Assembly: GCA_024398055.1 (NCBI GenBank)
Contig: CP073749.1
Coordinates: 1,426,594 to 1,490,593, forward strand
DNA length: 64,000 nucleotides
Reading direction: 5' to 3'
Origin: a bacterium SCSIO 12741
Lineage (GTDB): Bacteria > Bacteroidota > Bacteroidia > Flavobacteriales_G > Salibacteraceae
Each line of letters starts with the position of its first letter. The stretch's first letter is position 1. Shown here one piece after another: positions 42,928-52,058 of this stretch. A model generated the notes under the pieces. The model was not told the origin of the DNA, did no database searches, and was given only the letters and a program-made list of their open reading frames with translations. A program made the translations under genes and the position numbers.

Positions 42928-44853
42928 ATGAAGTATTTCTTTTTGTTTGCTCTTTTGTGGGCTTTGCCGGGCTTTTCTCAAACTCAAAATTCGAAACCCG
43001 TAATGACCATAGAGGAATATGATGAAAAAGTATTGCCTTTAAGAAATCAGGGTGTTGTCCATTATCAGCAAGAAAGGTTTGATAGCGCATCTCATTACTA
43101 TAATCTTGGGATCGAACAATATCAAAATTTCGAGTCAGATTCGAACAAAGCGGAATTGTATCATTACTTGGGAATTTCCGAATATAGCTTGGGTAAAATA
43201 TCATCATGTATATCCTCAATCCAACTTTCAAGACACATCTACGAAGATCTCGGGATTTATGGACACCATCTAGAATTAGATCAAATATTAGGGTTGAGCT
43301 TTAAAAAAAAGGGGATGTATGTAAAAGCATACGAAACAACTTTATCCATTCTTCAGGCTGAAAAAGAAAGGGCAAACCCTGAGTCGGTTTATAAATACTA
43401 TAACACCCTCGGAAATCTACAAAAGGAGTTCAAAAACTACAACAAATCCCTATTCTTTCTTTATAAGGCTCTAGAATCATCATATTTAGCCAAAGACACT
43501 TTAGGCACTTCAGGAGTAAAAAACAATTTGGCCCAAGTTTACCTATTAAGCGGAAATTTAGACTCAGCCAAAAAATACCTTTATGAGTCTCAAAGAATAA
43601 AATCAAAATCAAAGCAATTAAGATCACTATCAAATACACAAAGCTTAATTGGGGACTTATATTTTAAATTGAAAAATTTAGATAGTGCCGAATTCTACTA
43701 CAAAAAAAGTCTTGATATAAGACTGATAATTGGTGACTCATCAAAAGTTTCTTCATCCATTGCTCAGATAGCTCGAATAGAAACTCATAAAGGCAATTTT
43801 CACTATAGCGATTCTTTATTAAGCAAAGCCGAACGCCTTTCTTTACGAGATTCAATCAATGGCACACTTCCAGATATTGCGAAAATTCGAATCGAATGGA
43901 GCGAAGCCCTCGGCGACCCAAAAGAAATCTCCAAATGGTACCGCATCAAGGACTCCCTTCAACAAAAGATCTACGGCATCGAAAAGCAAGAGGCCATTGA
44001 CCGGATGCAGATTGAATTTGATGTGGAGCAAAACCAAAAGGCCCTGGCACAGGAGGAGGAAAAAAGTCAATTGCTGGAGGAACGGAATGCTGCTCTGTTT
44101 CGGACGAACTCTTTGCTCATAGGTGGAGTAATTCTGCTTATTCTTTTCTCCATATCGATGGTCTACCTGCTGAATATCAACCGGAAAAACAACCGCCAAC
44201 TTCGGGCTCAAGGAGTGCAGTTGGAAAAACAAGCTGAACAAATTCAGGTTCTCCATCAAGAATACAAACACCGAACGAGCAACCATTTTTCCATGATCAG
44301 CGCCATGTTTCAAATCCACGACAAGGCCAGCGAAAGTCAATTACTGAGCCAGGTCCTTCAAGATTATAAAGGTCGGGTAGACTCCCTGTCTATGATCAAC
44401 CGGCACCTGGTTAATCCTTCGGGAGAAAAAGAAGTGGTGGATATGTCCAGTTACCTGGATGAGCTTATTCAAAATACAGAGCTCGGGTATACTTCTTCTA
44501 AAAGCGTTTCTATTCAAAACGAACTACGGCGCTTTTCACTTCCGTCTTCATTGGCCATGAAAATGGGAATTATGGTTCATGAATTAATGACCAACTTCTT
44601 TAAGTATGCCCTGGAAAACAATCCATCGCCCGAATTAATCATCCTAACGTTATTCGAAAACAATCAGGTCTTCCTCAAAGTGCAGGACAATGGCCCTGGA
44701 TTAAAAGACGCCCAAAGCAGCTCGCACTCATCCACCGGATTCGGTCTTAGGCTTATCCAAACTTTTGTCCATGAATTGGATGGGGAAATAAGTCTATCTT
44801 CTGATGAGGGTTTTAAAGTGGAAATCACCTTCCCCTTCCTCGAGAAAAGCTAA
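42928..44853 (+). CDS. TPR sensor histidine kinase (HisKA_2 type)
   Basis: 641 residues. Signal peptide (1-18), about seven TPR repeats (about 30-370), a coiled coil, one membrane helix (about 395-413), a second coiled coil, then a HisKA_2-like phosphoacceptor domain with HRTSNHF (His about 448) and an HATPase with VHELMTNFFKYA (N box), DNGPGL (G1) and GFGLRLI (G2). Bacteroidota-type periplasmic-TPR kinase; no response regulator adjacent. A near-consensus promoter is TTG (42865) with TACTTTAG (42884). The TPR half is much more AT-rich than the kinase half. Confidence 0.9.
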   Translation: MKYFFLFALLWALPGFSQTQNSKPVMTIEEYDEKVLPLRNQGVVHYQQERFDSASHYYNLGIEQYQNFESDSNKAELYHYLGISEYSLGKISSCISSIQLSRHIYEDLGIYGHHLELDQILGLSFKKKGMYVKAYETTLSILQAEKERANPESVYKYYNTLGNLQKEFKNYNKSLFFLYKALESSYLAKDTLGTSGVKNNLAQVYLLSGNLDSAKKYLYESQRIKSKSKQLRSLSNTQSLIGDLYFKLKNLDSAEFYYKKSLDIRLIIGDSSKVSSSIAQIARIETHKGNFHYSDSLLSKAERLSLRDSINGTLPDIAKIRIEWSEALGDPKEISKWYRIKDSLQQKIYGIEKQEAIDRMQIEFDVEQNQKALAQEEEKSQLLEERNAALFRTNSLLIGGVILLILFSISMVYLLNINRKNNRQLRAQGVQLEKQAEQIQVLHQEYKHRTSNHFSMISAMFQIHDKASESQLLSQVLQDYKGRVDSLSMINRHLVNPSGEKEVVDMSSYLDELIQNTELGYTSSKSVSIQNELRRFSLPSSLAMKMGIMVHELMTNFFKYALENNPSPELIILTLFENNQVFLKVQDNGPGLKDAQSSSHSSTGFGLRLIQTFVHELDGEISLSSDEGFKVEITFPFLEKS

Positions 44854-44859
44854 AAAACT

Positions 44860-45309
44860 ATGAGCCTGATTCTATCCTACACCCCAAACCAGGGATTCAC
44901 TCTAAATAGAAATGAATTTCAATGGGGAGAAGACAGAACCCATGTGCACCAAAAACTAGGCTCACCGTCTGAGAAGGACAACCTACGAGACATTTACGAA
45001 GATTACAACGGCAGCGAAAACTATTTTTTTCTCACCTACAATCCGGAGGGCCAACTTAAAGAGCTGGAGGTGCACGAGGGGCTATCGGTTCAAACTAATG
45101 GCTTCGAACTTGAGTTCGGAAATGACCTACCAGAAATAATCAAGCATTTGAGCAGATTGGGTTTTAGACCGCAAGAAATGGAACCCGGACATTACTTGTT
45201 TGCCGAACTTAAAATGGTACTTTCCACGGATGAATCCATGGGTGGTGAAGGAAATGGGCTCTCCTATTTTTATGCGGCTCAGACCATTACCCATTTGATC
45301 GAAGAATGA
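44860..45309 (+). CDS. hypothetical protein
   Basis: 149 residues, six bases after the kinase gene and so probably co-transcribed. No signal peptide or membrane segment; mixed alpha/beta, acidic, with the pattern LNRNEFQWGEDRTHVHQKLG, YNPEGQLKELEVHEG and a C-terminal GLSYFYAAQTI. I do not recognise the family. A link to the upstream kinase is possible only from position. Confidence 0.65.
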   Translation: MSLILSYTPNQGFTLNRNEFQWGEDRTHVHQKLGSPSEKDNLRDIYEDYNGSENYFFLTYNPEGQLKELEVHEGLSVQTNGFELEFGNDLPEIIKHLSRLGFRPQEMEPGHYLFAELKMVLSTDESMGGEGNGLSYFYAAQTITHLIEE

Positions 45310-45380
45310 CCCTTAGGTATTATTCTTTGGCCATTGGAACGGATCGTAAACGCCTATGCTTTGGAGGTTAAAACCTTATT

Positions 45381-45605
45381 CTACTCCTCTTCAGACTCGC
45401 CTTGAATCTGACTTCTACGGGTATGGTCTGCTTTACTCAGGGTTCGGTTTTCCGGTGCCTGTGACCAATCAATCTGAGGGCCTTTACTGGTATTCTCAGC
45501 CTGCTCCAATTTCCGTTGTTCAGCTTTGTATTTTTTCTCTTCTTTTTTGCGTCGTTTCTTTTTCTCCCGATCGCGTTTTCCAAATGTTTGTTGTGATTTC
45601 GACAC
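45381..45605 (-). CDS. small basic protein resembling the N-terminal tail of Bacteroidota cold-shock proteins
   Basis: 74 residues from a GTG. MSKSQQTFGKRDREKKKRRKKEEKKYK.. closely resembles (from memory) the charged coiled-coil leader found before the cold-shock domain in Bacteroidota CspA-like proteins. Here no cold-shock domain follows: the protein ends GESEEE and there is no room for one before the next gene. It starts 12 bases after the DEAD-box helicase, so they are co-transcribed. Confidence 0.65.
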   Translation of the reverse strand: MSKSQQTFGKRDREKKKRRKKEEKKYKAEQRKLEQAENTSKGPQIDWSQAPENRTLSKADHTRRSQIQGESEEE

Positions 45606-45617
45606 TCTTATCCCCTG

Positions 45618-46823
45618 TTAATCTACTAAAGTTACAGCTTTTCCTTGTTTACCGGCTCTTCCGGTTCTACCGATTCTATGGATGTAACTATCCATATCCA
45701 TAGGCATCTGATAATTGATGACATGGGTTACATCATCCACATCAATGCCCCGTGCGGCTACATCTGTTGCGGCCAGTACCTGCAATTCGCCTCTGCGAAA
45801 TTTATTGAGAGCCCGAATCCGGTAGTTCTGAGTTTTGTTGCCATGAATCTCGTCGACATCTATCCCCGATTTTCGCAGCTTGGACGTAATTCTTTTCACC
45901 CAACTTTTGGTCTCCGCAAATACCAAAACCTTTTCATATTCGTCTTGTTGGATCAAATTCAAGAGAACCGAGAACTTATTTTCATTCGGCTTAATCCTTA
46001 TCACTTGCTGCTCAATATGATCAGAAGTTTCCTTTCCAGAGGTCGTTCGAACCATTTCCGGATTTTTCAACAGTTCATCGATAGATGGTTTCTGTTTGTC
46101 GTTAACGGTAGCCGAAAACAATACCGTTTGATCTCTGTGCACCATTCCACGTGCGATTCCCATTACTTCTTTGACAAATCCCATGTCGAGCATTCGATCA
46201 AATTCGTCAAGAATCAACCCGTTGTAGCTTTTCAATCGAAGCGCCTTGCGGACAATCAAATCCTGAACCCTTCCAGGGGTTCCGATAACCAGCTGAGGCC
46301 TTTCTCTTAAGCGCTGAATATCCCGATTGACTGAAGTTCCACCAATCACACAAATAGCACGCATAGGGAGCTTTTTGGCCAGGCTGTTAAACTCTTCCTC
46401 CACCTGAACGGCGAGTTCACGGGTGGGTACCAGAATGAGCGTTTTTCGGTTTTTGTTTTCTACCAAAAGTCGCTGGATGAGCGGGATCAAAAAGGCCCCG
46501 GTTTTACCTGTTCCAGTTTTAGCAATCCCCAATACATCCTTTCCTTCCAGCTGAAATTCCAGCGAGCCGTCCTGGATCTGAGTTAATTGCTTAAATCCCT
46601 TGTGGGTAATATTTCGGATCAACCGATGATCCAAAGGAAGAGATTTAACCTCTCGATGGAGAGTTACTTCCTCGGGTTTCGCCGGGCTCGCTTTTCGAAT
46701 TAAGGAATCCGGATTTATGGATGATACCCGTTTATTTTTCTTCCTATTTGAAGCATGTCGGGGTTTGGATTTGGCCCGAACGGGTTTGCCCTTATTGGGC
46801 ATAGATTTATTTCTTGTTTGCAT
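45618..46823 (-). CDS. DEAD-box-type RNA helicase
   Basis: 401 residues from the ATG at 46823. A basic N-terminal tail (about 1-45) precedes the helicase core: Walker A AKTGTGKT, motif Ia PTRELA, motif II written DEFD instead of DEAD, motif III SAT, motif V ATDVAARGIDV and motif VI HRIGRTGRAG. The protein ends soon after motif VI. DEFD is a tolerated variant. Unwinds RNA in ribosome assembly or mRNA turnover; members of this family are often cold-induced. Confidence 0.93.
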   Translation of the reverse strand: MQTRNKSMPNKGKPVRAKSKPRHASNRKKNKRVSSINPDSLIRKASPAKPEEVTLHREVKSLPLDHRLIRNITHKGFKQLTQIQDGSLEFQLEGKDVLGIAKTGTGKTGAFLIPLIQRLLVENKNRKTLILVPTRELAVQVEEEFNSLAKKLPMRAICVIGGTSVNRDIQRLRERPQLVIGTPGRVQDLIVRKALRLKSYNGLILDEFDRMLDMGFVKEVMGIARGMVHRDQTVLFSATVNDKQKPSIDELLKNPEMVRTTSGKETSDHIEQQVIRIKPNENKFSVLLNLIQQDEYEKVLVFAETKSWVKRITSKLRKSGIDVDEIHGNKTQNYRIRALNKFRRGELQVLAATDVAARGIDVDDVTHVINYQMPMDMDSYIHRIGRTGRAGKQGKAVTLVD

Positions 46824-46833
46824 TTTTAACAAT

Positions 46834-46860
46834 TAAAGAGTCTCCCTAATTATGGAGACT
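46834..46860 (-). terminator. hairpin between desaturase and helicase genes
   Basis: Minus strand AGTCTCC (46860-46854), eight bases, GGAGACT (46845-46839), then CTTTAATT. It could end the desaturase transcript, or, since the helicase ATG is only 16 bases further, act as an attenuator or 5' leader hairpin for the helicase. Confidence 0.5.
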
Positions 46861-46884
46861 GGTGGTTAACTAATGGTAGGAAGG

Positions 46885-47979
46885 CTATCGAACTTTCTCA
46901 GCTCGGCCCAGGTCATAAAGCAGCTTAACGTGCTCCATAGAGGCCCGGGTAAAACTTGGATAGGAGTTGTAAGGAAGATCGAATTCACGGGCAGTTTGCT
47001 CCACAATTTTTGAAATGCTCTTATAGTGCACGTGACAAATATTGGGGAAGAGATGGTGTTCTATTTGAAAATTCAATCCTCCGATAAACCAGGATAACAC
47101 CTTGCTATTGGGTGCAAAGTTACTCGTTGTTTTTAATTCGTGGGCAATCCAGCTATTTTCCAGGTCGCCAGACTCGTTGCTTTGATGAATTTCACAATTG
47201 GGCAGCACATGAGCAGACTGAAAAACCATAGAAAGAGTCAATCCAACAATAAAGTGCATAATCACAAAGCAAAGGATGGTAAATCCTACGGGAACCGGGG
47301 AAAGCCAAATGGGTAGAGCCAGGAACAGGCCAAAGTAAATCACTTTCCAAATCACCAAACTCACCATCAGCTCACGGAATTGTCCAGGCTTTGGGGTGAG
47401 CCCCATTTTTTTGAACTTGTAGGCTCTAAAATATTCTCTAAAGGTTACTCGAGCAAGAATAGAAATCCCATAGAAAAACCAGAAATAAAGGAATTGGAAA
47501 CGATGGATCGGCCTTAACTCTTGATAGGGTGTAAACCGCAGAAAGGACGGAGCATTTATATCATCATCGATCTGATCGACATTGGTATAGGTGTGGTGCA
47601 ACACATTATGCTGTAATTTCCAAACTTCGGCATTGGCTCCAATAATATTCATCGATAGTCCCAAAAGTCGATTTACTCTGGGGTTTCTGGAATAAGCTCC
47701 ATGGTTAGCATCATGCATCACCGAAAGACCAATGCCCGATTTACCAATACCCATAATCATCCAGAAAAGAAAAATGACCCAGTAATTGGTAAACAACCCT
47801 GAAATGATGCACAGAAAAGGAATCAGGTACAAGGCAAACATAACGATGGTTTTTACCACCATTGTCGAATTGGCAAATCTTGAAATGTCGTTGGACTTGA
47901 AGTGCTCGTTTACTCTTTTACGTATGGTTTTTAGGAAATCACGATCCTTCTTCGTGTCAAATCTGGCAAATGCTGTCAT
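46885..47979 (-). CDS. membrane fatty-acid desaturase
   Basis: 364 residues from the ATG at 47979 (MTAFARFDTKKDRDFLKTIRKRVNEHF, the usual start); an in-frame TTG at 48063 is unlikely. Three His boxes for the di-iron centre: HDANHG, HNVLHH and QIEHHLFP, with four or more membrane helices between them. Acyl-lipid/acyl-CoA desaturase of the delta-6/linoleoyl type; introduces double bases into membrane acyl chains, i.e. double bonds that raise fluidity. No cytochrome b5 domain is fused. Preceded by a 180-base leader. Confidence 0.92.
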   Translation of the reverse strand: MTAFARFDTKKDRDFLKTIRKRVNEHFKSNDISRFANSTMVVKTIVMFALYLIPFLCIISGLFTNYWVIFLFWMIMGIGKSGIGLSVMHDANHGAYSRNPRVNRLLGLSMNIIGANAEVWKLQHNVLHHTYTNVDQIDDDINAPSFLRFTPYQELRPIHRFQFLYFWFFYGISILARVTFREYFRAYKFKKMGLTPKPGQFRELMVSLVIWKVIYFGLFLALPIWLSPVPVGFTILCFVIMHFIVGLTLSMVFQSAHVLPNCEIHQSNESGDLENSWIAHELKTTSNFAPNSKVLSWFIGGLNFQIEHHLFPNICHVHYKSISKIVEQTAREFDLPYNSYPSFTRASMEHVKLLYDLGRAEKVR

Positions 47980-48195
47980 TAAGTGAGGTTCTCCCCTTCT
48001 TTTGGCCCAAAGCTTCTTCCTGCAAGAAGTAGCCCCCTTGGTACTATTCAGGTAATTAATCAACTGAATCCAACTGTGGATACAGGTCCGTTAAGCGTTT
48101 ATACGTGGAGAGGATCTAACTAGGGATGGGAAAGGCCAATCTGGTACATCTGCTGTTCCGAGCGCCAAAGATAGTATTATTCGCGAACGAACAAA
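47980..48195 (-). promoter_or_regulatory. desaturase promoter and long leader
   Basis: Minus strand TTTG (48195-48192), 18 bases, TATCTTTG (48173-48166). The predicted leader to the ATG at 47979 is about 180 bases, long for this window, and includes a perfect hairpin CTTCTT-5 nt-AAGAAG at 48029-48013. The remaining gap to 48297 holds the promoter of the divergent membrane gene and nothing else I recognise. Confidence 0.6.
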
Positions 48196-48274
48196 TTAAG
48201 CAAGCAATCAGTTAAAATACAGCGAATTACACTAACCTTAAATTCTTTATAAATAAGCAATGCCGGAAAGGGAC

Positions 48275-48282
48275 TACCTTTG
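48275..48282 (+). promoter_or_regulatory. -7 box for membrane protein pair
   Basis: TACCTTTG, 15 bases before the ATG at 48298. Confidence 0.5.
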
Positions 48283-48297
48283 TCCACTTAGTAAAAA

Positions 48298-49515
48298 ATG
48301 CAGGTTTCCTGGAGTAGAATCGGCTTGTTGTTTCTGTTGGTCGTAGCCCTTATCGGGACCCTTCTGCGCGGTCAGTTTCTGTTTTCCCTCCCCTTTCAAT
48401 ACGGGCACCTCGTTCATGCTCACTCCCACGTGGCATTTCAAGGTTGGATTTATCCCTTAATGCTCCTTTTTCTAACCCACCTTTACCTGGATTCTGAAAC
48501 CATTAAAAAAGGCAGATACGCCCTCCAATTCAAATGGACTATTCCCCTAATTATTGCGATACTGGCCTCGTTTTCCCTTCAGGGTTATGCCTTGTATTCA
48601 ATCATTTTCTCAACGGTTTTTCAAGGGCTTAACTACTGGTTCATTTTCCGCTTTTTAGGGGATTTGAAAAAATCACCTAGCAAGAAGAAAGATCTGATCT
48701 CCATCCATTATATCAAAACCGGCCTTTGGCTTGGGCTGCTTTCCACCTTGGTTCCTTTTGGCATCGGCGCCATGTCTGCCAAAGGATTAGGAGGAAGCGA
48801 GGCGTACCAATCACTCGTCTATACTTTTCTGCATTTGCAGTACAACGGCTGGTTTTTGTTTGTGGCACTGGGGCTTTTTTACCGCTTATTGGAAATCAGA
48901 AACATTCCTTATCATAGGCCAAAGGCCAGGCATGGATTTATCCTTTTTGCGCTGGCCGCTCTACCGGCCATTACCCTTTCTCTCCTGGGAATGAGTTTTG
49001 CTCCATACCTTCAGGTACCAGCCACCCTCTCTACGATAATGTTACTCGCAGGGGCCATTTACTTTGTACTTTCTGTTCAGTCTGTCTTGGTCGCCTTTTG
49101 GATCAGTTTGCGTCGCTGGAGCCGGGTATTTATCGGGCTGTTCCTTTTCTTCTTTGTTCTGAAAACTGTTCTTCAAAGTCTCTCAGTTGTGCCCATTTTT
49201 CAGGACTATGCTTTTACCAGCAAATCGATCATCCTGGCCTACTTGCACCTGAGCCTTATCGGGGTGATTTCTTTCCTGTTTCTTGGTCTTCTCATCGAGC
49301 TGGGATGGATTACCACCAAAAAGCTTGTCCCCGTTGGATTAACTCTCTTCCTAACCGGATTTTGTTGGACTGAAATGCTCTTGGTATTCGATGGGCTTCA
49401 CTGGATATTCTATCCTTCGACCGCCCTTTTCATAGGAAGTGCGATGATGGCTTTGGGCATCTTTTTAATTGTTATTCATCCCACATCGAAAACTGCTTAT
49501 CATGGAAAAATTTGA
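48298..49515 (+). CDS. multi-pass membrane protein with candidate heme-ligand histidines
   Basis: 405 residues, about 11-12 hydrophobic helices. His residues cluster in or next to helices: YGHLVHAHSHVAFQGW (about 34-49), FLHLQYNGWFLF (about 178-189) and AYLHLSLIGVISF (about 310-322). The spacing and helix count recall heme-copper-oxidase-like or NnrS-like proteins, but I cannot assign a family from motifs. Its end overlaps the next gene by 14 bases, so the two are coupled. Function unknown. Confidence 0.75.
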   Translation: MQVSWSRIGLLFLLVVALIGTLLRGQFLFSLPFQYGHLVHAHSHVAFQGWIYPLMLLFLTHLYLDSETIKKGRYALQFKWTIPLIIAILASFSLQGYALYSIIFSTVFQGLNYWFIFRFLGDLKKSPSKKKDLISIHYIKTGLWLGLLSTLVPFGIGAMSAKGLGGSEAYQSLVYTFLHLQYNGWFLFVALGLFYRLLEIRNIPYHRPKARHGFILFALAALPAITLSLLGMSFAPYLQVPATLSTIMLLAGAIYFVLSVQSVLVAFWISLRRWSRVFIGLFLFFFVLKTVLQSLSVVPIFQDYAFTSKSIILAYLHLSLIGVISFLFLGLLIELGWITTKKLVPVGLTLFLTGFCWTEMLLVFDGLHWIFYPSTALFIGSAMMALGIFLIVIHPTSKTAYHGKI

Positions 49516-50162: not shown

Positions 50163-52058
50163 ATGAAAACGGCTGTCGTTTGTTTAATTGCTGTGCTTTT
50201 TTGCCTGCCCACTAAGGCCCAAAACTCAACGGTTCATCCCGTCCAGCAACAACTCGACTCAGCCGAATACTATTGGCCCATAGATGTAATCAAGGCTCGG
50301 TATTTTTTGAATCGTGCTGAGGAATTGAGCCTGGAATCGAAGGATACACTTTGGATGATCAAATCCCTCACTCGAAGCGGACGGGCCTACCACTTGGATG
50401 GAGACAGTGAACAAGCCCGCACCAAGCTTTATGAAGCACTTCAGCTTCACGGCGACCAAAAGCGAGATTCCGTATTAGCGGATATTTATGATAACCTTGG
50501 GCTGATTTACCGCAATGCCGCCTATTTTGACCAGGCGGATTCATTTTTTGTGCAATCCCAAATGATACATCGCCTCGGTAAAGACACCTTAAAATGGGCC
50601 AATGTGATCAACAACCAGGGATGCGTATATCGAGACAAGCTCATCTTTCCGATCGCAAAAGTCTACCTGGATTCATCACTAAATCTCCTGGGACGATTCA
50701 AGGATTCTCATGTTTACCTGGAAACCGTATACCTCAAGGCCATCATCCTCTACGACCTGGGGTTTTACGATTCAGCGCAATACTACATGAAGCTAAACAT
50801 TGCTCTGGAAAAAGAACATTACGGCCTGGCACCGGCGGCCAATTACGTCCGACTTGCTGAGATAACCCTGCGCGGCGGAGATGATGATGAAGCCCAACTT
50901 TATCTGGATACGGCTTATCAGACACTGGATCGTACGCAAAACGATTTGAGATCGCTGGCCCGGGTCTATCGGGACCTTTCTGAATATTACGAAGCGGCTT
51001 TGGAATACTCTTCCTCCCTGGAGGCTTACAAAAGAGTTTATATGCTCCGGGAAATGATTCTTCTCCAAGAAAATGAAGGAAAAATTAGTCGTGCGGAATC
51101 GGAGTTTGAGGTTTACAAAAAGCAGCAGCAAATTCAAGTTCTTAAAACCAAAAAAGAACTGGCCGAAGCCCGGTCAAGGGAATTCCTCATTGTTCTTTCC
51201 TCCGCCCTTCTGGTACTGCTGTTGCTGGGTCTTCTGGTCATTTTTAAACACCGGGCTCAACGAAAAAGCGCCATGCAGAAGAAAGCTCTGGAAATGCAAA
51301 ACGAAAAACTGGAGCGACTCAATGAAGAAAAAAGTGAACTGCTGGCCATGGTGAGTCACAACCTTAAGACTCCTCTTGTTGGCATCCGGTATCTTCTGGG
51401 AAGTATTCTTCAGGCATCAAAAGATGATCCATCCGGGCATCATGAAAAAATAGGCATTGTACAATCCAATATTGAACGGATGATCGATTCTACTCAACTG
51501 CTGATTAAGCACTATAGAATGGATTTAAAACAAAGCAGCCCGAAACAAAAAGTGGATGTCAATGACTTAATCTATAGCCTTATTCAGCTCTACCGGGAGC
51601 ATGCACGCTACAAGCATATTCAAATTCAATTTACACCCGCAGCTACACGCAATCCAGTTCAAATTGAAGAACTTCTTCTCTATCAAGTATTGGATAATCT
51701 CTTATCCAATGCCGTAAAATATGCCAGTGAATACTCCACCATTCAGCTAAATTGCTCCCTGCGATTTGATCATTTTCTTTGTCTGTCGATTACCAACCAG
51801 GAACATATGCCCGAAAGCACCTCCGGCTCTGACTTTTCCGGATCCACACCGATCACGGTACACCACAAATCACATACCCAATTATCTACTGGGCTGGGCC
51901 TATACCTGATTCGTAAATACATGGATGGATTGGGGGTAAGGTTTGGTCGTCACGCAAAAAAGGGAGGATTCAATTTTCGATGGTTATCTCGGTCCAAAAC
52001 TAAGGTTGAATCCACTTCATGCGAATCGCATACCTCGTTAATCCCGAAAGCGTTTTGA
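50163..52058 (+). CDS. TPR sensor histidine kinase (HisKA type)
   Basis: 631 residues. Signal peptide (1-19), TPR region (about 30-320), membrane helix (about 339-360, LIVLSSALLVLLLLGLLVIF), coiled coil, HisKA with MVSHNLKTPL (His about 399) and HATPase with LDNLLSNAVKYA (N box) and STGLGLYLI (G2). The G1 box is degenerate: the usual DNGxG is replaced by TNQEHMPES, so ATP binding may be altered. The last 59 bases overlap the convergent LuxR-type response-regulator gene, its likely partner. Confidence 0.9.
   Translation: MKTAVVCLIAVLFCLPTKAQNSTVHPVQQQLDSAEYYWPIDVIKARYFLNRAEELSLESKDTLWMIKSLTRSGRAYHLDGDSEQARTKLYEALQLHGDQKRDSVLADIYDNLGLIYRNAAYFDQADSFFVQSQMIHRLGKDTLKWANVINNQGCVYRDKLIFPIAKVYLDSSLNLLGRFKDSHVYLETVYLKAIILYDLGFYDSAQYYMKLNIALEKEHYGLAPAANYVRLAEITLRGGDDDEAQLYLDTAYQTLDRTQNDLRSLARVYRDLSEYYEAALEYSSSLEAYKRVYMLREMILLQENEGKISRAESEFEVYKKQQQIQVLKTKKELAEARSREFLIVLSSALLVLLLLGLLVIFKHRAQRKSAMQKKALEMQNEKLERLNEEKSELLAMVSHNLKTPLVGIRYLLGSILQASKDDPSGHHEKIGIVQSNIERMIDSTQLLIKHYRMDLKQSSPKQKVDVNDLIYSLIQLYREHARYKHIQIQFTPAATRNPVQIEELLLYQVLDNLLSNAVKYASEYSTIQLNCSLRFDHFLCLSITNQEHMPESTSGSDFSGSTPITVHHKSHTQLSTGLGLYLIRKYMDGLGVRFGRHAKKGGFNFRWLSRSKTKVESTSCESHTSLIPKAF

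Follow-up and report, generated by a model that had tools for sequence, protein, structure and literature searches.

The desaturase, helicase and small-protein genes of bacterium SCSIO 12741 described here probably represent a reduced version of a cold-adaptation operon that recurs among Bacteroidia, with the order desaturase-helicase-tail and, in its fuller form, an additional cold-shock domain (CSD) gene, csp. The association of these genes recurs across families. A reading of the sequence alone had proposed a cold-adaptation cluster regulated through RNA hairpins; the cluster is borne out as a recurrent one that includes a true CSD gene in its more complete versions, whereas the regulation through those hairpins is not.

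Organization of the locus

All coordinates are positions in the window, the whole 64,000-nt stretch of contig CP073749.1 that was analysed. The features of the locus are as follows.

48166–48195, minus strand: predicted promoter TTTG-N18-TATCTTTG, Bacteroidota -33/-7 type
48120–48149, minus strand: 9-codon ORF MYQIGLSHP in the desaturase leader, read by eye
47980–48161, minus strand: predicted desaturase 5' leader, 182 nt, placed from the promoter position; two 6-bp perfect stems
46885–47979, minus strand: desaturase ORF, ATG start; PF00487 E 1.7e-37
47115–47122, minus strand: TAACTTTG box inside the desaturase gene, a possible internal promoter or chance
46839–46860, minus strand: 7-bp hairpin in the desaturase-helicase gap, borderline against shuffles
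45618–46823, minus strand: DEFD-box RNA helicase ORF; PF00270 E 1.6e-44, PF00271 E 3.8e-35
45381–45605, minus strand: ORF (GTG start) encoding the 74-residue basic "tail" protein, a homologue of the N-terminal tail found in CSD proteins

The three consecutive leftward genes of the sequence-only reading were found in place as minus-strand ORFs, with intergenic gaps of 61 nt (desaturase to helicase) and 12 nt (helicase to tail) and no promoter box in the desaturase-helicase gap. Judged from spacing and promoter boxes, the latter sought with the consensus given in PMC7366714 and PMC6847099, the three genes constitute a plausible transcription unit. The 9-codon leader ORF has no support as a real leader peptide. 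Two TPR-containing histidine kinase genes, both on the plus strand, flank the region (42928–44853 and 50163–52058).

The desaturase scores 130 bits against PF00487, where the cut-off is 29.7, and its translation contains the three histidine boxes HDANHG, HNVLHH and QIEHH, the defining feature of the fatty acid desaturase family. Its nearest relatives are 48–54% identical, and its ATG start is consistent with their N-termini.

The helicase belongs to the DEAD-box family by PF00270 and PF00271 matches over cut-off, a motif II of DEFD and a motif VI of HRIGRTGR. It is short and carries a basic N-terminal extension. CshA is its best match in both NCBIfam and the PDB, and it shares the helicase core of the CshA/RhlE type; it differs from that type in its DEFD motif, in ending 12 residues after motif VI and in falling below the curated NCBIfam cut-offs of the CshA, RhlE, SrmB and DbpA equivalogs, the best being CshA with 376.9 of 646 bits. 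Orthologues occur in 20 of 35 family genomes at E ≤ 1e-92 and in at least 30 of 395 class genomes at E ≤ 1e-100, a lower bound from four candidates scored per genome. Motif II reads DEFD in 40 of the 41 orthologues read and DEYD in one (L068); the helicase of L139 gave no readout and is outside the 41. Most orthologues have 12–17 residues after motif VI, with 25 in L069 and 61–70 in L135–L138. The combination of a helicase devoid of a C-terminal RNA-binding tail with an adjoining basic tail gene suggests that the tail may act in trans. Three loci (L144, L145 and L146) contain two tandem helicase paralogues followed by a tail-CSD fusion gene.

The gene cluster in related genomes

The helicase loci compared were 43 in number: the window, two from named genomes (L024 and L025), 22 from relatives and 18 from the class. 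Partners were tallied by hand and counted if close by on the same strand. A desaturase was present near the helicase in 10 loci, a tail gene in 12 and csp in 11; any partner occurred in 17 of the 43 and at least two kinds in 11. The order of the window, desaturase-helicase-tail, recurs in three loci of another family (L131–L133), there followed by csp, a 64-residue CSD gene, and in L050 the same three genes are followed by the contig end. In L024 and L025 the order is helicase, tail, csp, desaturase. Desaturase and helicase are separated by only 1–11 nt in L051 and L130–L133. By a rough estimate, chance alone would place a desaturase beside a helicase on the order of 0.0006 times per genome. 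No report of a desaturase-helicase-tail cluster was found in the open-access literature searched by titles.

The remaining 26 of the 43 loci lack any same-strand partner. In five of these (L053, L054, L057, L068 and L128), a nearby tail or CSD gene lies on the opposite strand. Some of the 26 are truncated by contig ends, and the contigs of L069 and L071 are short. The genes of the cluster are thus frequently dispersed, most of all in the family of the window.

The small basic tail protein

Searches of Pfam and NCBIfam at E ≤ 1 gave no match for the 74-residue tail protein, which thus lacks the cold-shock domain PF00313; the sole PF00313 match in the window genome lies about 2.4 Mb from the locus. 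The description "Csp-like tail" given to it earlier is apt only in that a basic tail precedes the CSD in relatives; the protein itself, however, has no CSD and is not a cold-shock protein. Homologues of the tail were identified at E ≤ 0.01 in 23 of 60 genomes, the window genome included. Sixteen are long frames of 147–169 residues with a PF00313 CSD (L008–L023), and seven, the window protein among them, are short and tail-only. Sequences were read out for 21 of the 23 (all except L002 and L018), and for L002 later. The window protein and the tail-CSD fusions have in common the basic N-terminal segment M-x-K/R-S-Q-x-S/T-F-x-K-K/R, whereas the window protein is without the CSD and its second half matches the tail-only proteins, the aligned members of which share a second motif, EIDWxSAPxNxTL. 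All six other tail-only proteins from the 60 genomes resemble the window protein, and five of those six genomes gave no CSD match.

Operons from other families encode the tail separately, as a protein of 65–86 residues. Twelve of the 43 helicase loci, among them the window with its 12-nt gap, have the tail gene starting 3–17 nt beyond the stop codon of the helicase. A CSD gene follows the tail in eight of these (L024, L025, L124, L125, L127, L131, L132 and L133) and is missing after it in the other four, namely the window, L050 (where the contig ends), L055 and L123. Among five tail-only relatives pN/pS ranges from 0.10 to 0.33 over 10 pairs, with synonymous sites near saturation in all but one pair; the unsaturated pair has a value of 0.10. 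The tail-only relatives are under purifying selection. Occurrence as separate genes in one genome and as a fusion in another is classically taken to indicate that two genes are functionally linked. The tail may be an RNA-binding cofactor.

Start codons of operonic desaturases

Family f16 contains 23 desaturase matches in 20 of 60 genomes; three gave no match to the query and were excluded. Ten of the 20 kept have a helicase or csp just downstream and form the operonic set. In eight of these ten, the stretch from the in-frame stop upstream to the conserved N-terminus contains no ATG, and AUU or AUC stands at the start position (one of the eight, L225, has a possible TTG upstream); the other two have ATG. 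Among the ten non-operonic desaturases ATG is found in nine, and L241 possibly starts with TTG. The desaturases of L130, L132 and L133 likewise show ATT at the apparent start. Apparent AUU or AUC starts were noted altogether in L131–L133, L130, L224, L225, L227–L229, L231 and L232. The E. coli infC gene, encoding IF3, starts with AUU, and by analogy the AUU/AUC start of operonic desaturases may be a translational brake. The literature search returned no relevant paper on AUU starts.

Predicted promoter and leader of the window operon

The predicted leader was described earlier as 180 bases long with a perfect hairpin. A length of about 182 nt and two 6-bp stems agree with this description; however, 6 bp is the longest perfect stem, and one at least as long arose in 640 of 2000 dinucleotide shuffles, the level of chance. 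The fold has a z of +1.23, with 182 of 200 shuffles equal or better, and of +1.19 in a second run, so that the structure in excess of expectation that marks a leader of the cold-shock type is absent here. Predicted pairing around the start codon changes little, from 0.54 at 5 °C to 0.48 at 37 °C. The leader hairpin was rejected as a thermosensor on these grounds: a chance-level stem, a leader less stable than its shuffles and a small change in pairing.

Rfam at gathering threshold identified only a tRNA in the whole window, and within 45300–48400 two sub-threshold matches (E 0.93 and 1.1). The leader shares no sequence of 10 nt or more with the regions upstream of the CSD gene and helicase paralogues of its own genome; two helicase paralogues share one upstream 10-mer with each other.

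Leaders in relatives

A TAHHTTTG box was sought within 450 nt upstream of first genes, with 274 other genes of the same loci as controls. It was found for 34 of 42 first genes, at 68–368 nt (median 203.5), and for 70 of the controls, at a median of 34 nt. Boxes at 110 nt or more precede 33 of 42 first genes versus 25 of 274 controls, a contrast with a nominal p of 5e-21 that is too small because the loci are related. A long leader thus tends to be typical of the operon's first gene in related genomes, and the length of the window leader fits this family trait. Published leaders of B. thetaiotaomicron and F. johnsoniae are short, with a median of 32 nt (13.5% above 100 nt) and an average of 33 nt, respectively (PMC7366714, PMC6847099).

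Of these 34 leaders, 27 were folded; L136 and L138 were excluded as near-duplicates, L122, L126 and L128 for an uncertain box, and L130 and L132 for their AUU start. The mean z of these first-gene leaders is -1.94, with 22 of 27 below -1, and the window leader, at +1.19, is the highest and hence the least structured. The long structured leader proposed earlier is accordingly retained for its length, which is typical of first genes of the operon, but not for its structure.

Leader element R1 and other motifs

Helicase leaders of relatives from several families contain a word near UUUUAGCAGA some 10 nt downstream of the -7 box and a complementary GCUAA or GCUGA word about 60–85 nt beyond it. The element (UUUUAGC, close to the 5' end of the mRNA, pairing with GCUAA/GCUGA) was observed in L024, L025, L052–L055, L057, L058, L060, L061, L070, L123–L125, L127 and L129. 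The helix had been proposed earlier by RNAalifold from seven leaders of one genus. In 13 leaders its six pairs are formed in 78 of 78 cells, one pair switching between C-G and U-A; the 13 rows were picked for holding both complementary words, so the pairing is partly by construction. Scanned over 45 loci, the resulting covariance model, R1, matches 16 helicase leaders, of which 13 are its training rows, and has one weak match elsewhere. It revealed no new strong instance in 395 genomes: the 11 strong matches are known helicase leaders, and six weak ones (E 0.0018–0.009) lie away from helicase leaders. Rfam at gathering threshold recognized no family in nine helicase-leader loci. Within window positions 46500–48600 the best match to R1, with its UUAGC...GCUAA closing helix, has 7.7 bits and an E of 0.89 and falls within the helicase gene, on the plus strand; across the window's own genome there is no match at E ≤ 0.01.

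The window leader has AGCAGA at the spacing of the R1 word after the box, which may be a remnant of the element or chance. Box-plus-AGCAGA has eight matches in 1.12 Mb of loci, all of them cluster leaders including the window's; these loci had, however, been selected for their cluster genes, and one genus accounts for five of the matches. The window genome contains six matches versus none for the reversed control, and none of the other five precedes known cold genes as judged by eye. A longer form occurs at 10 places in the 35 family genomes, six of them leaders of the cluster helicase. Another form was found at 60 places among the matches listed, in 48 of 395 class genomes, with about 28 for the reversed control. 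Among 30 of its loci examined, two precede the cluster helicase and 28 have no match to the helicase, CSD, tail or desaturase queries; one further place is the L125 leader. AGCAGA was accordingly rejected as a regulon mark; it marks some helicase leaders.

Hairpins with an AGCGC loop, one or two per leader, were seen by eye in 12 of 42 loci (L052–L054, L056–L060, L062, L063, L065 and L068). They are mostly absent before CSD genes and helicase paralogues and were not found in the window leader.

Alternative explanations

The hairpin noted just before the helicase is a real 7-bp stem (AGTCTCC, 8 nt, GGAGACT, at 46860–46839), although borderline against shuffles: an equal perfect stem occurs in 110 of 2000 shuffled gaps (51 of 1000 in another run), and the fold z is -1.83, with 11 of 200 shuffles as good. 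A different stem of 11 bp, counting G-U pairs, is reached in 5 of 1000 shuffles. The desaturase-helicase gaps of L050 and L126, similar in length, each have a stem. With perfect pairs only, neither is above chance (249 and 96 of 1000 shuffles); with G-U pairs allowed the values are 0 and 87 of 1000. The window hairpin could be a weak terminator that separates the desaturase from a helicase-tail unit transcribed from a promoter inside the desaturase gene. It passes a terminator-like scan, which found 8 sites where shuffles give an expected 4.0, and some 300 nt separate the TAACTTTG box from the helicase downstream, a distance seen for the stand-alone helicases of relatives. However, the hairpin is followed by a poor T-run (CTTTAATTGT), the box is within coding sequence, where by estimate one is expected by chance at such a length, and the narrow gaps of L051 and L130–L133 favor a common transcript. 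Two separate units are thus unlikely, though they merit more weight than either of the next two readings.

The cluster could also be an ordinary set of house-keeping genes that do not respond to temperature and are adjacent because of general co-expression. The unstructured window leader would accord with this, but desaturases, RNA helicases and CSD proteins are classical cold functions and it is these, or the tail, that recur together; this explanation is improbable. The small protein might instead be what is left of a tail-CSD fusion, now decaying after the loss of both the CSD and its function. Fusions are common among its homologues and the CSD is indeed gone; yet in the fuller operons the tail stands on its own as an intact gene directly downstream of the helicase, and the similarity of all six other tail-only proteins, with EIDWxSAPxNxTL in those aligned, and the low pN/pS of the unsaturated pair speak for a maintained protein. 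Decay is very improbable, slightly more so than the house-keeping reading.

Discussion

In the preferred reading, a reduced cold-adaptation operon, a single transcript from the promoter at 48195–48166 would carry all three genes. At low temperature the desaturase would restore membrane fluidity, and the short helicase would unwind over-stable RNA with the basic tail peptide as RNA-binding cofactor. The regulation through RNA structure envisaged by the sequence-only reading did not hold up for its hairpins, the leader stem being at chance level, the hairpin before the helicase borderline and the element of the relatives not found. The evidence for any role of RNA structure in this operon seems to sit in the relatives, and the window copy seems to lack it. 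With no csp at the locus and a leader devoid of the relatives' element, any cold control would act via the promoter, RNA stability or another feature of the leader.

The cold-shock regulon of E. coli comprises the CspA family and CsdA/DeaD and has long 5' leaders. The present operon resembles it in combining an RNA helicase with CSD-related proteins and in its long leader; it differs in the presence of a desaturase in the cluster, in the lack of a CSD in the small protein and in a window leader of no unusual structure. The four-gene clusters L131–L133 share the gene order and the tight tail spacing of the window, whereas the window has no csp and its desaturase starts with AUG, theirs seemingly with AUU. 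A broader proposal, put forward tentatively and judged possible rather than likely, is that Bacteroidia possess a clustered cold-shock operon of their own with control at the RNA level, comprising a long leader that forms the element in relatives, the DEFD helicase partnered by a tail protein that makes up one detachable half of a fused cold-shock protein and, in some families, the AUU/AUC brake. The window copy would then be a derived one in which the tail has outlived the CSD and works with the helicase alone.

A recurrent operon of this kind would join membrane and RNA functions, and it would tie an unnamed family of small proteins to helicases and cold-shock domains by both adjacency and fusion. 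With these two and a long leader open to experiment in a culturable relative, the cold response of Bacteroidota would become directly testable.
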